Part shown: piece after piece, positions 29,260-55,437 of the stretch
Layout: every line of letters starts with the position of its first letter
How positions within the stretch are numbered: position 1 is the stretch's first letter
Origin: Candidatus Gastranaerophilales bacterium
Lineage (GTDB): Bacteria; Cyanobacteriota; Vampirovibrionia; Gastranaerophilales; Gastranaerophilaceae
Assembly: GCA_944325875.1 (NCBI GenBank)
Contig: CALVBU010000003.1
Span: 1 to 64,000 of the forward strand
DNA: 64,000 nucleotides
Reading direction: 5' to 3'
Program-made: the position numbers and the translations under genes
The notes under the pieces: model-generated
The model's database searches: none
What the model was told of the DNA's origin: nothing
What the model saw: only the letters and a program-made list of their open reading frames with translations

Positions 29260-29333
<74 letters not shown>

Positions 29334-29340
29334 AGGTTTA

Positions 29341-29385
29341 AAAAATAATAGCGATAAGGCATTTGAACTTATCGCTATTATTTTT
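29341..29385. terminator. 18-bp stem terminator between tRNA-Arg and integrase
   Basis: AAAAATAATAGCGATAAG (29341-29358) pairs perfectly over 18 bp with 29368-29385. It is A-rich on one side and T-rich on the other, so it works in both directions. It isolates the prophage from the tRNA. Confidence 0.85.
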
Positions 29386-29405
29386 TAGTTTAGATTTTTA
29401 TATTT

Positions 29406-29426
29406 TTGGGTGACATTTGGGTGACA
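29406..29426. repeat. Tandem direct repeats, possible integrase arm sites
   Basis: TTGGGTGACA occurs twice (29406-29415 and 29417-29426) with an 11-base period, about one helical turn. The repeats lie between the tRNA-Arg end and the integrase stop. Arm-type sites of tyrosine integrases are commonly arranged this way. The assignment is inferred from position. Confidence 0.55.
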
Positions 29427-29440
29427 AGCAACATAATATA

Positions 29441-30673
29441 TTATCTTAGTACTTGTGATAAAGTTTCTGCGGCCCCCTCATCGGCTTTTTTCATTATATG
29501 GCTGTAAATATCGCTTGTTGTACTGACTTGAGAATGACCAAGTCTTTTACTTACGGTTACCGGATCAACTTTCATAAATATTAATATACTAGCCTGGGAA
29601 TGACGGAATATGTGTGGGGATAGTTTTATTTCTCTTTTTTGTTTTGTTTCTGGTAATTCTTTATTTTCTTCTTTGATTTTGATATTATATTTATTCTGCA
29701 ATTTCCTGCAGTAATTCGTTACAGAATCAGGATGCATAGGTAATCCATTCTCTTGTGTAAAAATAAAATTATCTTTCCCTATCCATTTATTTCCTATGGA
29801 TAATTTTTGTTCCATATATATTTTTTTATATTGTTTTAATAGTAAAACAGTTTCTTTTGGTAATGTGACATAACGAATAGAACTTTCTGTTTTTGGACTT
29901 TCTTCGTAAATACCACGTTCTTGAGTATATAAAAGATTATTATCTATATATATTGTATTTTCTTTAAAATTAATTTTATTCCATTTTAAGCCTAAAATTT
30001 CACCTCTTCTTGCTCCAGTAACAGCAAGAAGTTTAATTAGTACTTTCCATTTAAGAGGTTCTTTTTCTAGTATATTAAAAATCGTCTTTATTTCATCAAT
30101 TTCAAGATATTGTGCAGATTTTCTTTTATTTTTTGGTGGGCTGGCCTTAGAAGCTGCATTGTATGTAACAAGCATTTCCTTTTCTGCTTGCTTTAATATT
30201 GTTCCAATTAATGAATGATACTCTCTAATAGTTTTTGCACTCAATTTTCCTCCTGTTGTTAGGTTTGTATCATTTCTCAATTGTTCATAAAAATTATTTA
30301 AATGCTGAGGCCTTATATCGGTCAATTTAATGTGTCCTATTGCAATATTTATCCGTTCAAGCAATTTTTTATATAAAGTTATTGTTTGATGTTTTATGCC
30401 ATTTTTTTCTTTTAGATTTATAACATATTCTGCATATTGTGAAAATGTTTGACGGTTGTCAACAACTAGCCCACTTTTACATTCTTCCTCGTATAATGTT
30501 GCGATACGATTTAATTCTTTTTGAATTTTATTATCACTCCAATTTTCAGGAACTTTCCATGTTTTAGTATAGGGTTTAAGTCTTTTACCGTTGCTATCCC
30601 TACCTTTATATATTTTTATTCTATAAGATATAATTTTACCGTTTTTATTTTTTCTTGCTTCTATATTTGGCAT
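29441..30673 (-). CDS. int: Phage tyrosine integrase
   Basis: The 410-residue protein has an N-terminal arm-binding part (1-60), a SAM-like core-binding domain (about 75-185) and a catalytic domain (about 190-400). The catalytic residues are visible: Arg in VTGARRGEILGLKW, Lys in PKTESSIR, His-x-x-Arg in SPHIFRHSQAS, the second His in RLGHSQVS and the nucleophile Tyr in SDIYSHI. It integrates and excises the prophage at tRNA-Arg. It is transcribed towards the attachment site. Confidence 0.96.
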   Translation of the reverse strand: MPNIEARKNKNGKIISYRIKIYKGRDSNGKRLKPYTKTWKVPENWSDNKIQKELNRIATLYEEECKSGLVVDNRQTFSQYAEYVINLKEKNGIKHQTITLYKKLLERINIAIGHIKLTDIRPQHLNNFYEQLRNDTNLTTGGKLSAKTIREYHSLIGTILKQAEKEMLVTYNAASKASPPKNKRKSAQYLEIDEIKTIFNILEKEPLKWKVLIKLLAVTGARRGEILGLKWNKINFKENTIYIDNNLLYTQERGIYEESPKTESSIRYVTLPKETVLLLKQYKKIYMEQKLSIGNKWIGKDNFIFTQENGLPMHPDSVTNYCRKLQNKYNIKIKEENKELPETKQKREIKLSPHIFRHSQASILIFMKVDPVTVSKRLGHSQVSTTSDIYSHIMKKADEGAAETLSQVLR

Positions 30674-34217: not shown

Positions 34218-35061
34218 TTTACCTAATGAAGATTGTTCTTCGAGTGGCTGGGGATATAACTATATTCTATCTTGGATTTCGGATGCAACAAGAATGAACC
34301 GGACTGAGTTTGAAAAATGGAAACAAATTGCTTTGATTCAGAAAAAAGATCCGCAATATATAAATAAATATTTAAAAGCACTTAATTGCAAAAAGAATAT
34401 GAGGTCTGAAATGACAGAATTAAACAATAATAAAAAAATAGAACTTTTAAATATCTTAACTGATAAAGAAAAACAAATTATTGCAGAAATTGTAAAAGGT
34501 TCTTCTTTTAAGACTATTCCTTTTAATTTGGGGATTTCTCAGAATACTTTTGCAACATATATGTCCGGCATTTATAAAAAGACAAAAAAATTAGTAAATT
34601 ATGGGCAAAAGCTTAAACAAACGACACTGGTAGATTATTTATTTAACCAATGTGGTTTTAAATGTGTTGATTTTATTGATACATCTCAAGATAACAACAA
34701 ATCTAAAATTGTCAGCACCATTCCAAATACTACTGTCAAGAAAACTAATAAAGCCTTTGATGACGCAACTATTCAGAAAGAGAATCACCTTCCAGAACAA
34801 AATATAAAAATTTTGGAACAAAAACTTATAGATTTTGGTATTGACAGAATTCTTGGTAGTTTAAAAGTATCACGGGATTTTTTGCAGGGTAAATATAAAC
34901 AATTGTGTGAAAATCTCGGAGATTTGCTTGTGCAAAGTTCAGTGGATAAAGTACAGGAAAGCCCTGATTATATGCTTGCACATGATTATGATGATGCAAT
35001 ATGGGGTTTAACACGTGCAATTATTGAATTGGAGAATAATGAAAATGGAAATAAAGTTTAA
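34201..35061 (+). CDS. LuxR-type HTH phage protein with long C-terminal extension
   Basis: The 286-residue protein starts at TTG 34201 behind AGAGGATAAAG. A polar N-terminal region contains a WISDATRMNRTEFEKW helix. A LuxR-like HTH lies at about 86-140 (LTDKEKQIIAEIVKGSSFKT and LGISQNTFATYMSGIYKKT). The C-terminal helical part (200-280) is of unknown type. A second HTH of the same class in one early operon suggests a regulatory pair. It overlaps dnaN by 23 bases. Confidence 0.72.
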   Translation: MKLRNSLPNEDCSSSGWGYNYILSWISDATRMNRTEFEKWKQIALIQKKDPQYINKYLKALNCKKNMRSEMTELNNNKKIELLNILTDKEKQIIAEIVKGSSFKTIPFNLGISQNTFATYMSGIYKKTKKLVNYGQKLKQTTLVDYLFNQCGFKCVDFIDTSQDNNKSKIVSTIPNTTVKKTNKAFDDATIQKENHLPEQNIKILEQKLIDFGIDRILGSLKVSRDFLQGKYKQLCENLGDLLVQSSVDKVQESPDYMLAHDYDDAIWGLTRAIIELENNENGNKV

Positions 35062-36139
35062 TGCAAAAGATTTTTTAGAAGTTTTAAATAAAATAAAACA
35101 TATTGCAAGATTTGATAAATCTTGCCCTATATTGAGCAATGGAATTTTTGAGACTACTGAAGATGGATTGAAAATTACTGTTTCCAGCCTTTTAAACAGA
35201 GCAGAAATTAATGCTGATGTAGTTGTAATTGAGTCTGGTAAATGTCTTATAGAAATAGATAAGCTAACGGCTATTATTTCGACATTAACCGGTGAAACAT
35301 TTATTGAAGAGAAAGATAATGTTATTTGGATCAAAAGCGGAAAAACTAAATGCCGTTTAGATAAAAATCTACTTGAAGATTACCCGGAAAACCTTTTTGG
35401 CTTTTCTAATTCTGAATGTACATTTAAGATTTCTTCAGATGCTCTAATAGAAGGGATTAAAAAGACGGAAAAATTTACTGCTAAAGCTGAAAACTCAATG
35501 TTAAGCGGGATAAATTTAAAAATAGATAATAATATGGCCAAATTTGCAGCAACTGATGGAAATAAGTTAGCGTATATTTTAAAATGTTCTAAAAGTCCTG
35601 ATGCGTTTTGTGATATTATTATCCCTTATGATTCTGCAATGAATATGCTTCCTCTATTTTCTGCAGATACGGATATTGAAGTGTTTGTAGAAAAAGGGAT
35701 ATGCAAATTTTTATTCCACAATGCTGAAGGTAATGTTATTTTTAGTACAAGATTATTAGAAGGGCAATATCCAAAATTTGAGCAGCTTATACCTAAAGAA
35801 AGTCAAATAAATTTTGAATTAAATAAAGATGAACTAAAGAAAGCTCTTGAACGAATTAGTGTAGTTGAGTCAAAAGATGATAAGTGTATTGTTCTTCTTT
35901 CTGTAAAAGGTTCATTGTTAACAGTTGAAGCTAAGGATTACAAATGCAATGATATATTAACATTGTCTGAAAAATCCGGAGATGATATTTCTTTTGCTCT
36001 AAACAGAATTTTTTTAGACACTGTTTTGAATGTATTAAGTACTGATAATATTAGATTTTGCATGAATACTCCGTTAAGTGCGGTATTGTTTCCGGATATG
36101 GAGCATAAGTATATGATTATGCCAATGACGATAAAGTAG
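35039..36139 (+). CDS. dnaN: Phage-encoded DNA polymerase III sliding clamp (beta)
   Basis: A protein of about 366 residues with the three-domain architecture of bacterial beta clamps: MKMEIKFNAKDFLEVLNKI at the start, LSGINLKIDNNMAKFAATDG in domain 2, LEGQYPKFEQLIP near the middle and the C-terminal MIMPMTI, equivalent to the usual MPMR ending. It encircles DNA and holds polymerases. The ATG at 35039 is chosen because GGAG lies 5 bases upstream; the track start at 35015 lacks a site. A phage clamp suggests that the phage redirects the host replisome. Confidence 0.93.
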   Translation: MKMEIKFNAKDFLEVLNKIKHIARFDKSCPILSNGIFETTEDGLKITVSSLLNRAEINADVVVIESGKCLIEIDKLTAIISTLTGETFIEEKDNVIWIKSGKTKCRLDKNLLEDYPENLFGFSNSECTFKISSDALIEGIKKTEKFTAKAENSMLSGINLKIDNNMAKFAATDGNKLAYILKCSKSPDAFCDIIIPYDSAMNMLPLFSADTDIEVFVEKGICKFLFHNAEGNVIFSTRLLEGQYPKFEQLIPKESQINFELNKDELKKALERISVVESKDDKCIVLLSVKGSLLTVEAKDYKCNDILTLSEKSGDDISFALNRIFLDTVLNVLSTDNIRFCMNTPLSAVLFPDMEHKYMIMPMTIK

Positions 36140-40642: not shown

Positions 40643-41491
40643 ATGGTTTTAAGACAGAATTTTGGTGGTTATTTAATTAATTGGGTTGGAGGGAAAAGAC
40701 AACTTAGAGAAACGGTTTCTTTGTTAATTCCTTCTAATATATCAAGTTATATTGAACCTTTTGGCGGTGGAGGTTGGGTTTTATTTTATTATCATCGTTG
40801 GGCTGACCTTGAAGTATATAATGATTTGGATAATCGACTTGTTAACCTGTTCAGGGTTGTTAAGTATCATCCTTGTGAACTTGCGAGAGAAATGTGTTAT
40901 TTATTTCACTCAAGGGAACAATTTTTATCATTAATACAAAACCAAGGAGAAACCGATATACAAAAAGCCGCAAGATTTATGTTTATTCTTTCTCGCTCAT
41001 TCGGTGGCAGGGGAAAGCATTTTGGAGTTTCTTACGAGAGCTCTATCAAATCTGCAGGTGGGTTAATTGAACGTGTAGATAAAATTTCTAAAAGACTTGA
41101 TAAAGTTATTATTGAAAATTTATCCGCTATGGATTTGATCCCGCAGTATGATAATGAAAATGCTTTTTTCTACTGCGACCCACCTTATAGTTCGGGAGCA
41201 GGATATGAGGTTGTTAGTGCAGCAAAGTTTGAACATGAACGTCTAAGAAACACCTTAAAAAATATAAAAGGACGTTTCCTTTTAAGCTATGATGACGCTC
41301 CCAAAATAAGAGAATTATACAAAGATTTTAACATAATAGAGACCGAACGTATAAATGGAATTAATAGAAAAGATATAAAAAATAATATTTATAAAGAGCT
41401 TTTAATCTGTAATTATGATGTTGAAAATATCAATGGAGTTTGGCAGGTTAAAAATAATAATTTTTCTCAGGGCAGTATTTTCGATGTTTAA
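40643..41491 (+). CDS. dam: DNA adenine methyltransferase, Dam (D12) class
   Basis: The 282-residue protein shows INWVGGKRQLRETV and YIEPFGGGGWVLF, the AdoMet-binding region, then a central target domain and the catalytic FFYCDPPYSS, the DPPY motif. It methylates adenine N6, typically in GATC. No cognate nuclease is adjacent, so it is probably an orphan phage methylase that protects phage DNA or marks it for packaging or repair. It has a GGAGG ribosome site and overlaps the next gene by 8 bases. Confidence 0.95.
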   Translation: MVLRQNFGGYLINWVGGKRQLRETVSLLIPSNISSYIEPFGGGGWVLFYYHRWADLEVYNDLDNRLVNLFRVVKYHPCELAREMCYLFHSREQFLSLIQNQGETDIQKAARFMFILSRSFGGRGKHFGVSYESSIKSAGGLIERVDKISKRLDKVIIENLSAMDLIPQYDNENAFFYCDPPYSSGAGYEVVSAAKFEHERLRNTLKNIKGRFLLSYDDAPKIRELYKDFNIIETERINGINRKDIKNNIYKELLICNYDVENINGVWQVKNNNFSQGSIFDV

Positions 41492-50777: not shown

Positions 50778-52640
50778 ATGGTTGTAAAATCTATTTCGTC
50801 TGATGCTCGTGCATCGGCGACTGGCGTTGCATTTTATCAACGAGCACAAAATGCTGGAGCATATCTAAGACCTGAAAAATTACTATTTTTAGGTAATTAT
50901 CAGGATGGTAAGACTGTGGAAGAAAATACTATTTATTCAGGTTTGGGAAATGCTGATGACATTGGAGCCATAATGGGTTTTGGTTCACCTTTACATCGTA
51001 TGGCCTTAAAGGCTTTTCCTGCTGACGGAAGCGGTGCAAACGTGGAAACATACTTTTTACCTGTTCCTGAAATTAAAAGTGGAACAAAGCATAAGGTAAA
51101 TTTATCTGTAAGTGGTTCCCCTACAAGTAACGCTACACTATATTTCAGATATAAAGAACAAATATTTGAGGCTGCAGCAGACATTGCATCAAAGGTTGCA
51201 ACATCAGCACATAATAACCCTGCACTAGATCCAAAAGGTATAAAACTAAATTCATATAATTATGAAAAAATTCCTTTTACTCTGCAAAAAGGTAAAAGTG
51301 CAAAAGAGATTTTGACGGCAATTAAAGAAGCTTTAGATGAATATGTTGAAGTTCCTTTTACCTTTGTTGTAGATGATAAGGCTTCCGCATCTGCAGCAAA
51401 ATTGAAGTCATCATTAGCAATTAATTGCACTGAATTAACTGCAGAGGATTATTATATTGCATACTCAGTTGATGGTGGAGAGCGTAAAGAAATTTCCATT
51501 GGAACTATATCTGCAGAAACAGCTGAAGATGTTATTACTTCTTTGAGTGGGCATTTGGAGGGTGTAACAATTTCTGCGGATACTCCTAGTGAAGTTAGTT
51601 CGACTTATACTCTTACTTCCCAAACAAGCGGAGCTGATTCAAAAGTCGAAATTCTAGTTCCTTCAACAGGTACTGATTTATTTGCAGCTTTGAAATTATC
51701 AGGAACTGCAAGCGGTAGTTCGACAATTGTTTTAACTTTAGAAGCAAAAGTTAAAGGAGAATCAGCGAAATTTGAAGTGGATGTTGTAAATTCAGAGTAT
51801 AAACCTGTAACTGAAGAGGATTATGGGGTAAGCTTTTCAACAGCAGTTATAAGCGAGGCTGCCGGTCTTGTAAAAATTGATGATTATTTAGATTTAATTT
51901 CAGAAGAACTAGGTATAACAAGAGTATGCTCGCAATTTAACGATGATAACTCTATTGATGCAATGATGGAATATTTTCAGGGCTGGCGTACTGATACAAA
52001 AATTGCTCAGTATGTAACTTGTTATACATCAAAAGAGTATCCAGAAAATAATTTAGTGAGGGGAACTGTTGATGTAGATTCTCTCGTTGCATTTGGGAAT
52101 AAACGTAGAGAGGATCAAGTGAATGTTCAAATCTATGGTGATTATGGAAAATTGAGACCTTTGAAATGGTCATTGAGAGATAAACTTTTAAAAGCTGGTA
52201 TTCCTAATCTTGAGCCTCTTGCCGACGGGGGGTATCAAATTGGTGATTTGTGTACTTTTTATCATCCACAAGGCAGTAAAAAAGCTTTATATATGTATGA
52301 CAGAGATGTATGTTGCTTAGGTAATATTGCATATAATTTAATGTACACATTTAAGTATGATGAAAATTGGAAATCTGTCATTGTTATAAATAATGATGAT
52401 TTTTCAACAAATCCAAAAGCTAAAAAAATAAGTGCATTTGTTGATAAAATTAATAGCATTATAAGGTCTTTAGGAGATGCTGGTTTACTTGCAAATGTTG
52501 AAAAATCTATCGGCTATACTATATGTGAAATTGATGACACAAATCCTGATCGTTTGAATACAAATACATTCTCTGATTTATCTGGTGTAAATAGGATTAT
52601 GGATATTTGTAATATGGTCGGATTTAACTATGGAGGTTAA
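50778..52640 (+). CDS. Contractile tail sheath protein, Mu gpL-like
   Basis: The 620-residue protein, with a strong AAGGAGG ribosome site, forms the outer contractile tube. The N-terminal GVAFYQRAQNAGAYLRPEKL and LGNADDIGAIMGFGSPLHRM lead into a large Ala/Ser/Thr-rich insertion (about residues 95-345) that probably makes extra surface domains. The C-terminal half (DDYLDLISEELGITRVC, then ENNLVRGTVDVDSLVAFGNK) is sheath-like. It is longer than the roughly 495-residue Mu protein, with the insertion accounting for the difference. Confidence 0.87.
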   Translation: MVVKSISSDARASATGVAFYQRAQNAGAYLRPEKLLFLGNYQDGKTVEENTIYSGLGNADDIGAIMGFGSPLHRMALKAFPADGSGANVETYFLPVPEIKSGTKHKVNLSVSGSPTSNATLYFRYKEQIFEAAADIASKVATSAHNNPALDPKGIKLNSYNYEKIPFTLQKGKSAKEILTAIKEALDEYVEVPFTFVVDDKASASAAKLKSSLAINCTELTAEDYYIAYSVDGGERKEISIGTISAETAEDVITSLSGHLEGVTISADTPSEVSSTYTLTSQTSGADSKVEILVPSTGTDLFAALKLSGTASGSSTIVLTLEAKVKGESAKFEVDVVNSEYKPVTEEDYGVSFSTAVISEAAGLVKIDDYLDLISEELGITRVCSQFNDDNSIDAMMEYFQGWRTDTKIAQYVTCYTSKEYPENNLVRGTVDVDSLVAFGNKRREDQVNVQIYGDYGKLRPLKWSLRDKLLKAGIPNLEPLADGGYQIGDLCTFYHPQGSKKALYMYDRDVCCLGNIAYNLMYTFKYDENWKSVIVINNDDFSTNPKAKKISAFVDKINSIIRSLGDAGLLANVEKSIGYTICEIDDTNPDRLNTNTFSDLSGVNRIMDICNMVGFNYGG

Positions 52641-52646
52641 TAATAA

Positions 52647-53015
52647 ATGGCAGGATATTTAAAATCACTTACGATAGAGGGATATGGCTTTGGTGTACCA
52701 AGTGATTGCGAGGTTAAGGTGCATATTGGAGGTGAGCAGATTACTGAGTATATCACTTTTGGTGATGGAAGATCTAGGGCAGTAAAAAAAATCGTTCCAG
52801 GACGTATAGAAGGATGTCAGGTTGATGCAAGTGAAGTTAAGGTATTAGAATCTTTTCTTGGAAAAGAAAAATTGTCAATAAGAGCTGAAACTGATGAGAA
52901 ATCATATACTTGTGAAGGGATGATAGTTTCCGAATCCTTAAGTATAGGTATAAAAAATAATGTTACCGAGGCTTTTGATATAGTATCAAATTCTGGAAAA
53001 CTTAAACATAGTTAA
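52647..53015 (+). CDS. Tail tube protein, Mu gpM-like
   Basis: A 122-residue beta-rich protein (GYGFGVPSDCEVKVHIGGEQ, then FGDGRSRAVKKIVPGRIEGC) in the position and size range of Mu gpM (PF10618). It builds the inner tube. It starts 6 bases after the sheath stop. A terminator follows, so sheath and tube may be made in larger amounts than later genes. Confidence 0.85.
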   Translation: MAGYLKSLTIEGYGFGVPSDCEVKVHIGGEQITEYITFGDGRSRAVKKIVPGRIEGCQVDASEVKVLESFLGKEKLSIRAETDEKSYTCEGMIVSESLSIGIKNNVTEAFDIVSNSGKLKHS

Positions 53016-53072: not shown

Positions 53073-53492
53073 ATGAAAATAGAAGAAAAAATGTCAAAGA
53101 GTGAAGCTGAACTTTATATAGATGAACTGGCTGAAAAACTTGAAATAGACCTTCTTGATTTTAATGTAAGAGAGAAATCTCCTGAAGAAAAAAAGTCTTC
53201 AGCATATTTTTTGCAAGGAGTAATGGCTGGATTGGTTTTTTATGATGAAGAAAAAGGTTGTTTAGTTCAAAAATTAACAAGGACAGTTCGTGCTGGAGAT
53301 TTTGAACGCAATGAACTTTATTATAAGAATAAATTCAAGGTTAGAGACGCAAGAAAATTAAAAGAGGGTAGTTATGATGCTTCTATAAAGATGCTGGCTA
53401 GTGTTTGTGAACTACCTGAAGCTATTATAAATGAAATGTATGGTACGAATTTAGAAATTGCCATGGCCTGCTTGGATTTTTTCTTGAAATAA
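53073..53492 (+). CDS. Tail assembly chaperone, short form (gpG-like)
   Basis: A 139-residue helical protein with AAAGGAGAG before the ATG. It lies between tail tube and tape measure, the place of tail assembly chaperones. Residues about 85-139 contain ARKLKEGSYDASIKMLASVC and end CLDFFLK at the stop. The last codons contain a slippery T-TTT-TTC heptamer that directs some ribosomes into the -1 frame (see the extended form). Confidence 0.85.
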   Translation: MKIEEKMSKSEAELYIDELAEKLEIDLLDFNVREKSPEEKKSSAYFLQGVMAGLVFYDEEKGCLVQKLTRTVRAGDFERNELYYKNKFKVRDARKLKEGSYDASIKMLASVCELPEAIINEMYGTNLEIAMACLDFFLK

Positions 53493-53647
53493 GATTGCCA
53501 AGAATATTGGCAATGGCGGATTTTCTCTGGCTTGAAAGATTTGATACATCAACAAATGTTGATAATATGTTGGCTTGTGAGGTTTTAGAAAAAGCTCCTC
53601 TTGCTTATAAGTATGAAGCCAAGAAAAATAGTGTTCCGAAAGGTTAA
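53073..53647 (+). CDS. Tail assembly chaperone, long -1 frameshift form (gpGT-like)
   Basis: In the -1 frame from 53483 the reading stays open for 54 codons to TAA at 53645-53647, just before the tape measure start. It adds a helical domain containing MADFLWLERFDTSTNVDNML and ending KKNSVPKG. As in lambda gpG and gpGT, the long form would be made at a low ratio and link chaperone to tape measure. The frame shift is inferred from sequence, not measured. Confidence 0.8.
53477..53514 (+). other. Programmed -1 ribosomal frameshift signal
   Basis: The slippery heptamer T-TTT-TTC (53477-53483) precedes the zero-frame stop at 53490-53492. After a 10-base spacer comes a perfect 8-bp hairpin: ATTGCCAA (53494-53501), 5-base loop, TTGGCAAT (53507-53514). 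This has all the parts of a standard -1 signal. Confidence 0.85.
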
Positions 53648-53649
53648 TT

Positions 53650-55437
53650 ATGTCTTTTTCTATTTTTACAAAATTTAAAGCTATAGATGGAATTAGTCCA
53701 GCTTTTAAGAGTATGATCGACAAGGGGAATAGTTTTCAACAGCAGGCCGGAAGAATTCAAGGGGCATTTGCTAGAACATTTCGATCTGTTGGATCTGGTT
53801 TAAGGAACTTGAGATCAGGTTTCAGTTCTATTACTGATAAAATTTTTAGTATAAAAAATGCTTTAATGAGTAGTTTTGTTGTTATTGGACTTCAAAAAAC
53901 TTTTGGAGCTATAAAAGGTTTTATTCAAGAAACTATTACTGCAGCGCAAGGTCAAACGTTGGCAGAAGCTAAATTATATACTATTTTAAAAAATGTTCAT
54001 TCTATTCAGGCAAGAGGACCGCAAGCATACAAAGCTGCAGGGGAGCACTTATCAAAAATGGCTACTCATTTGCAAAGAGTAGGTATTATCGGTGATGAAA
54101 TTACTCTTGCAGGTTTTCAACAGCTTGCGACTTTTCAAATGTCTGACAAGGAAATAAGTATTTTGGCTGGAGGAATGAGTGATTTGCTTGCCCAGCAAAA
54201 AGGCTTAAATGCAACCCAACAAGATGCTGTAGGAATTGCCAATCTTATGGGTAAAGTTATGGATGGACAAGTTGGAGCTCTAAGACGTGTAGGTGTATCA
54301 TTCACTAAAAATGAAGAAAAAATATTAAAAACTGGAACAAGATTGCAACGAGCATCAATGCTTGCAAAAGTATTACAAAATAATGTAGGAGGTGTTAATC
54401 TAGCGATTGCCAAAATGCCTGAAGGTAAAATTCAAAATATGACAAATCAGTGGAGTGATATGTATGAAAATATAGGTATTAAACTTATGCCTATATTAGC
54501 AGATTTGGCAGGTTGGTTTGCTCCACATATCCCTAAAATTGAAAGTTTTATTTTGAAACTTATTGATAAAACTATTGAGTTGAAAAATTCAATGGTAAAT
54601 GTATATAATAGTTTTAAAAATTTTTATGGGTATATTATAGACAATTCTGATAAAATTATAGCTGCAATAAGTGGAATTGCTACAGTTGCTCTTATTGCAA
54701 ATTTTAATAATTTAACTTGGGCTATATTGGGACTTACTATAAAATTAGGGGCTTTTACTGCTTCTGTTTGGGCAAGTGTTACAGCAATTGCGGCTCAAAC
54801 AGCTGCATTACTTTCTAATCCTATGACATGGGTAGCTATAGCAATAGGTGCGGTTGTTGCAGGTTTAGTGTTATTGGCATTGAACTGGGATAAGGTAAAA
54901 GCTGCTACTCTTGATTTTGTTCAAAAGGCTAAGTTATGGATCTTAGATTTATGGCAAAAAATAGAGCCTATATTTAATAAGATTAAAGAAGCTGCAGCTT
55001 TAGCTTTTAGATTTACTCCAGTTGGAGCAGTTGTGAATGTAACAAGAAATATAAATGAAAAAAGGAAACAGTCGAAAGAGAAAAAAATACCGGGGTTTGC
55101 TTCTGGAACGAATTATTTTTCTGGGGGTCTTGCTATTGTAGGGGAACGTGGGCCAGAATTGGTTCATTTGCCACAAGCAACAAAAATCTATAATAATAAT
55201 AGAACAATCCGTATGATAGAGCAGATGTCTAAACCTCGAAAAGATAATGTTCTTGATTTTGAAAAATATTTGAATAAACGTTATGAAATAGATTTGCCTC
55301 GTTATAAAGATTTAAACAGTGGGGTTTTAGAAATAGAATTGACGGTTCCTGAAGGATACGATGCAAAAGTCGTCAATGCCAAAACCCCTGATGGTAGAGA
55401 CTTCAAAGTTAAGTTAAGAGGGAAACGTAAGCAATAA
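53650..55437 (+). CDS. Tail tape measure protein
   Basis: A 595-residue protein with long helical, Lys/Ala-rich regions and at least two hydrophobic segments (about 330-360 and 395-420, AIAIGAVVAGLVLLALNW). The N-terminus resembles the tail-length tape measure start (FSIFTKFKAIDGISPAFKSM). Its length sets tail length; at about 1.5 A per residue a tail of roughly 85-90 nm would be expected. A Gly/Pro-rich loop with FASGTNYFSGGLAIVGERGP near the C-terminus is typical of the family. It follows the chaperone directly. Confidence 0.88.
   Translation: MSFSIFTKFKAIDGISPAFKSMIDKGNSFQQQAGRIQGAFARTFRSVGSGLRNLRSGFSSITDKIFSIKNALMSSFVVIGLQKTFGAIKGFIQETITAAQGQTLAEAKLYTILKNVHSIQARGPQAYKAAGEHLSKMATHLQRVGIIGDEITLAGFQQLATFQMSDKEISILAGGMSDLLAQQKGLNATQQDAVGIANLMGKVMDGQVGALRRVGVSFTKNEEKILKTGTRLQRASMLAKVLQNNVGGVNLAIAKMPEGKIQNMTNQWSDMYENIGIKLMPILADLAGWFAPHIPKIESFILKLIDKTIELKNSMVNVYNSFKNFYGYIIDNSDKIIAAISGIATVALIANFNNLTWAILGLTIKLGAFTASVWASVTAIAAQTAALLSNPMTWVAIAIGAVVAGLVLLALNWDKVKAATLDFVQKAKLWILDLWQKIEPIFNKIKEAAALAFRFTPVGAVVNVTRNINEKRKQSKEKKIPGFASGTNYFSGGLAIVGERGPELVHLPQATKIYNNNRTIRMIEQMSKPRKDNVLDFEKYLNKRYEIDLPRYKDLNSGVLEIELTVPEGYDAKVVNAKTPDGRDFKVKLRGKRKQ

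Follow-up and report, generated by a model that had tools for sequence, protein, structure and literature searches.

A temperate prophage with a contractile tail, carried in the 64-kb stretch of Gastranaerophilales DNA analyzed here (the window), has a probable tail assembly chaperone (TAC) gene that is predicted to encode two products through a programmed −1 ribosomal frameshift; on the basis of sequence comparisons, we put the probability of this reading at about 0.93. Most ribosomes would pass T TTT TTC without a shift, incorporate Leu-Lys, and stop at a TAA codon, yielding a 139-aa chaperone. In a minority, both Phe tRNAs would re-pair on TTT-TTT after a backward slip of a single base; these ribosomes would go on through 54 further codons of the −1 frame and produce a 191-aa fusion of chaperone and extension. 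If the two forms act as lambda gpG/gpGT and P2 gpE/gpE+E′ do, the shorter would cover the tape measure protein, the longer would bring in the tail tube protein, and the frequency of slippage would set their ratio. We infer the slipping agent (ribosomes, not RNA polymerase), the slip efficiency, and the role in assembly. The features of the region are as follows.

50778 to 52640, + strand: tail sheath gene (PHROG 165 tail sheath, E = 2e-35).
52647 to 53015, + strand: probable tail tube gene (PHROG 4699 tail tube protein, E = 0.005, a weak match; position after the sheath gene).
53073 to 53492, + strand: zero-frame TAC gene encoding a gpG/gpE-like short product of 139 aa (ORF, position between tube and tape measure genes, a weak Pfam match, weak to moderate fold matches).
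53477 to 53483, + strand: slippery heptamer T TTT TTC (X_XXY_YYZ), read from the sequence.
53484 to 53647, + strand: extension in the −1 frame, with 54 codons and a stop following Phe-Phe (open frame, homologues).
53490 to 53492, + strand: zero-frame TAA stop, 6 nt 3′ of the heptamer, read from the sequence.
53494 to 53514, + strand: 8-bp hairpin with a 5-nt loop, 10 nt past the heptamer (predicted fold; present, not conserved).
53650 to 55437, + strand: tape measure gene (many PHROG tape-measure matches).

The host element is a temperate contractile-tailed Gastranaerophilales prophage with a lambda-like head and a P2/Mu-like tail. A tyrosine integrase gene (29441 to 30673, − strand) lies near a tRNA gene (29260 to 29333), and the region spanning both (29260 to 30673) is likely the prophage attachment site. 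Other prophage genes encode an S24/CI-type repressor, a GpA-type terminase, a lambda-type portal, a Clp-type protease, a lambda head decoration protein, and a phage_cap_E capsid protein. The tail genes are arranged in the order sheath, tube (a weak match), chaperone, tape measure, hub, and baseplate. The prophage also carries a DNA polymerase III beta sliding clamp gene with all three Pfam domains (35015 to 36139, + strand) and a D12-class adenine DNA methyltransferase gene (40643 to 41491, + strand).

Assignment of the 139-aa product as a tail assembly chaperone is likely and rests mainly on gene position, between the tube gene (itself weakly matched) and the tape measure gene. The protein matched Pfam Phage_TAC_7 (PF10109, which includes P2 E, Mu gp41, and gp14) with an E value of 0.004, and weak matches to this family were also found in 6 of 16 relatives; since the score of 17.6 bits is below the curated cut-off of 25, we do not claim formal Pfam membership. 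An AlphaFold2 model built from the alignment of relatives (pLDDT of 87) matched three unnamed viral proteins with TM scores of about 0.7 and a tape measure chaperone of Burkholderia phage Mica with an E value of 0.002 and a probability of 1.0, but with a TM score of 0.46. No match to the model was found in the PDB. Profile comparison with the single sequences of Mu gp41 and P2 gpE was not significant, and tblastn searches of annotated phages with the chaperone and one distant homologue gave no match.

The TAC ORF ends in GAT TTT TTC TTG AAA TAA, which places the heptamer in X_XXY_YYZ phase. Read from the heptamer, the −1 frame meets its first stop at the TAA at 53645 to 53647, and the tape measure ATG at 53650 lies 2 nt past that stop. 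The stretch from 53493 to 53647 (155 nt), previously non-coding, is now covered by the −1 frame, and the 10 nt from 53484 to 53493 separate the heptamer from the hairpin stem. An earlier note on this DNA had proposed a −1 programmed frameshift in the tail chaperone, naming T-TTT-TTC, a 10-base spacer, a perfect 8-bp hairpin, a −1 frame of 54 codons, and the 155 bases; sequence and fold bore out each of these numbers, and the heptamer, its phase, and the extension in relatives support the proposed frameshift. An extension of the Mu gp41 type, by a −2 shift (equivalently, into the +1 frame), was not found in the window, where the +1 frame shuts no more than 43 nt after the zero-frame stop. TTTTTTC occurs 75 times on both strands of the 64-kb window, and an open frame of 52 codons has a chance probability of about 1.5% at 31% GC, as calculated from base composition. 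Once relatives are included, the combination of heptamer and open −1 frame is, as judged from the aligned sequences, far beyond chance.

The chaperone and its alignment served as queries in searches for homologues in IMG/VR and in genomes of the family, order, and phylum. The viral contigs gave no match to a single chaperone sequence; the alignment-based search matched 12 viral-contig loci. The final sample comprised 27 distinct homologues from Gastranaerophilales genomes (18 sequences, including that of the window) and viral contigs (9 sequences), about 26 to 84% identical. T TTT TTC was kept in the same phase in all 27, down to about 26 to 30% protein identity, and in every one the heptamer and the zero-frame stop that followed it were 3 or 6 nt apart. 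The 27 sequences share ancestry, and these counts are therefore not counts of independent events; at the same time, synonymous sites should be near saturation, because many pairs are only 26 to 50% identical in protein. Conservation of the heptamer in relatives, which the earlier note had named as a check, thus held in every homologue examined, and the −1 extension was open in all close relatives. Inspection by eye of the relatives' sequences upstream of the heptamer found no conserved Shine-Dalgarno-like stimulator.

Codon choice at the site was constrained in a manner not seen at the other invariant residues of the protein. In all 18 genome sequences Phe-Phe was encoded by TTT-TTC, and in sampled window genes TTC makes up 13% and TTT 87% of Phe codons. 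The residue before Phe-Phe was variable (D, N, S, R, or G), and T was the last base of its codon in every case (GAT, AAT, AGT, CGT, or GGT); other invariant chaperone residues used mixed synonymous codons in the same 18 sequences. By this codon comparison, the nucleotide-level constraint sits exactly where tandem −1 slippage would need it. The same pattern bears on transcriptional slippage, in which RNA polymerase would insert an extra U within the T6 run and the fusion would come from ordinary translation of the altered message. The run is present at the site, a polymerase slip there could lead into the same frame, and ribosomal and transcriptional slips can co-occur at one site (PMC5009743). 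However, the run is only six T long, and polymerase slippage would favor T7 (NNT TTT TTT), which codon usage would also lead one to expect; instead, a C breaks the run in all 18 genome sequences. The strict X_XXY_YYZ phase, moreover, is a requirement of tandem tRNA slippage, and we consider slippage by the polymerase very unlikely.

The −1 extension was homologous and open in 26 of the 27 sequences, for about 50 to 57 codons from the heptamer (extension alignment A2 covers 16 of the sequences; the rest were compared separately). Close relatives differ in the −1 frame mainly at third codon positions (for example, 9/7/26 for L011 versus L013), and on this comparison the extension is under purifying selection. 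A −1 overlap can be mimicked by an indel, and the arrangement could in principle be a pseudogene or a sequencing-error frameshift in a once single gene. That possibility, to which we give almost no weight, is already refuted by conservation, as 26 of the 27 distinct sequences break at the same codon and have an open extension.

Re-initiation after the chaperone stop, which would make the extension a separate gene, is suggested by the mechanical ORF list, where a 50-aa ORF starts at TTG 53495; an ATG at about 53512 to 53513 is another candidate start and in many close relatives belongs to a conserved MAD(F/Y) motif. No Shine-Dalgarno-like sequence, however, precedes the downstream start in the window, and L011 does not have that ATG. 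In two other homologues (L023 and L024), the extension contains no ATG, GTG, or TTG at all, and in two more (L005 and L016) its first 24 and 27 codons, respectively, are free of start codons. Separate translation of the extension therefore cannot be the conserved mode. Two separate genes would also leave the invariant slippery heptamer unexplained, and we regard them as highly improbable. If expression is by frameshifting, as we prefer, the correct gene model for the extension is the fusion, in place of the separate small ORF that is all the mechanical list shows.

The one exception to the open extension is genome G119 (L022/L034), where the heptamer is kept and the −1 frame continues for only about 11 codons past Phe-Phe, ending at the tape measure start. 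A search of this genome for the extension elsewhere found no other match. In L022 (this region at about 1914 to 2010), the tape measure gene follows directly, with its own ribosome-binding site. A different arrangement was observed at L036 (G357:C50:32484-32795, minus strand), where an antisense ORF between the chaperone and tape measure genes matches the chaperone profile (E = 8e-8) and is perhaps an inverted, diverged chaperone copy.

Downstream of the window heptamer, positions 53494 to 53501 pair with 53507 to 53514 in eight perfect pairs (−10 kcal/mol); no other TTTTTTC in the window has a perfect 8-bp hairpin 4 to 13 nt downstream. These properties would suit an essential stimulator in a strict textbook arrangement of heptamer, spacer, and hairpin. 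Perfect hairpins of this kind number 47 on the + strand per 64 kb, however; because about 0.5 chance coincidences of heptamer and hairpin are expected anywhere in the window and the fold downstream of the heptamer has a z score of only −1.0, the hairpin alone is unremarkable. Of its eight pairs, all of which form in the window, the next closest genome relatives retain only 6, 6, 4, 4, 4, 3, and 2. Pairing across the nine closest sequences (59.7% of cells) was no better than in shuffles (mean of 60.3%), and two cells had changed on both sides. A conserved consensus RNA structure was sought in the nine-sequence alignment and was not found (consensus fold of −1.7 kcal/mol). Since even the closest relatives do not conserve the hairpin, it should be left out of the signal; of the textbook arrangement in the earlier note, the heptamer held up in the comparison with relatives and the hairpin did not. 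This is in line with Atkins et al., and in certain tailed phages a stimulator is seemingly not involved in frameshifting (PMC5009743).

An essential stimulatory role for the hairpin is accordingly unlikely. From these comparisons, it is probably incidental or window specific, and it may modulate this one site. A hairpin seen in a single genome needs a conservation check before it is read as part of a signal. A second small hairpin (ATCAAC...GTTGAT) at about 53545 to 53565 on the + strand is kept in the four closest sequences and absent from the folds of L012 and L013; its distance from the slip site, on the downstream side, is probably too great for an effect there. A stronger version of the preferred reading would be a −1 frameshift independent of any hairpin, long maintained in Gastranaerophilales prophages, with the heptamer and a stop 3 to 6 nt downstream as its sole determinants. 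L022, which lost the extension yet kept the heptamer, would hint that the slip site or a very short extension is still useful. This version is conceivable, if doubtful.

Tail-chaperone frameshifting, established in lambda and P2, is with these data extended to temperate contractile-tailed phages of the Gastranaerophilales, which are non-photosynthetic Cyanobacteriota, and the comparative evidence is unusually clean. The nearest parallel in organization is P2 gpE/gpE+E′. Both systems have the order sheath, tube, E, E′, tape measure (in P2 terms), a −1 slip close to the chaperone end, on six T that are phased alike (the annotated P2 site is T TTT TTG), and a short extension, of about 57 aa in P2 and 54 aa in the window, that ends beside the tape measure start. 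The P2 heptamer ends in G, whereas that of the window ends in C, and the zero-frame stop follows the heptamer by about 20 nt in P2 versus 3 to 6 nt in the window group. The two chaperones have diverged beyond significant pairwise similarity, and the weak alignment of the window extension with P2 E′ (P = 0.015, probability of 3%) is too little for a claim of homology.

In PaMx73, a Mu-like phage of P. aeruginosa, T TTT TTC lies in a tail assembly gene (core ORF35/36) (PMC4378225). Heptamer and −1 direction are identical to those of the window; unlike the window prophage, PaMx73 has a flexible (siphophage) tail, and 43 codons, rather than 2, separate its heptamer from the zero-frame stop. Mu gp41 shares gene position with the window gene and belongs to a contractile tail with similar baseplate genes. 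It differs in its verified −2 shift (PMC5009743), as opposed to −1, and shows no significant similarity to the window protein. In the Vibrio phages with the nearest sheath (VP16T and 1.246.O), the presumed chaperone ORFs contained no in-phase X_XXY_YYZ heptamer; these phages are too distant to inform the present case.

Lambda G/GT, the match named in the earlier note, shares the functional logic of two chaperone isoforms made from one gene and acting on the tape measure and tail proteins, and its −1 shift occurs at a low level, with a stimulatory signal thought unnecessary (PMC5009743). The lambda tail is non-contractile, in contrast to that of the window prophage, and the likeness drawn here is one of function; P2 E/E′ and PaMx73 are the better matches. 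Functionally, the window case belongs to the P2/lambda class, as a new member and not a new kind.
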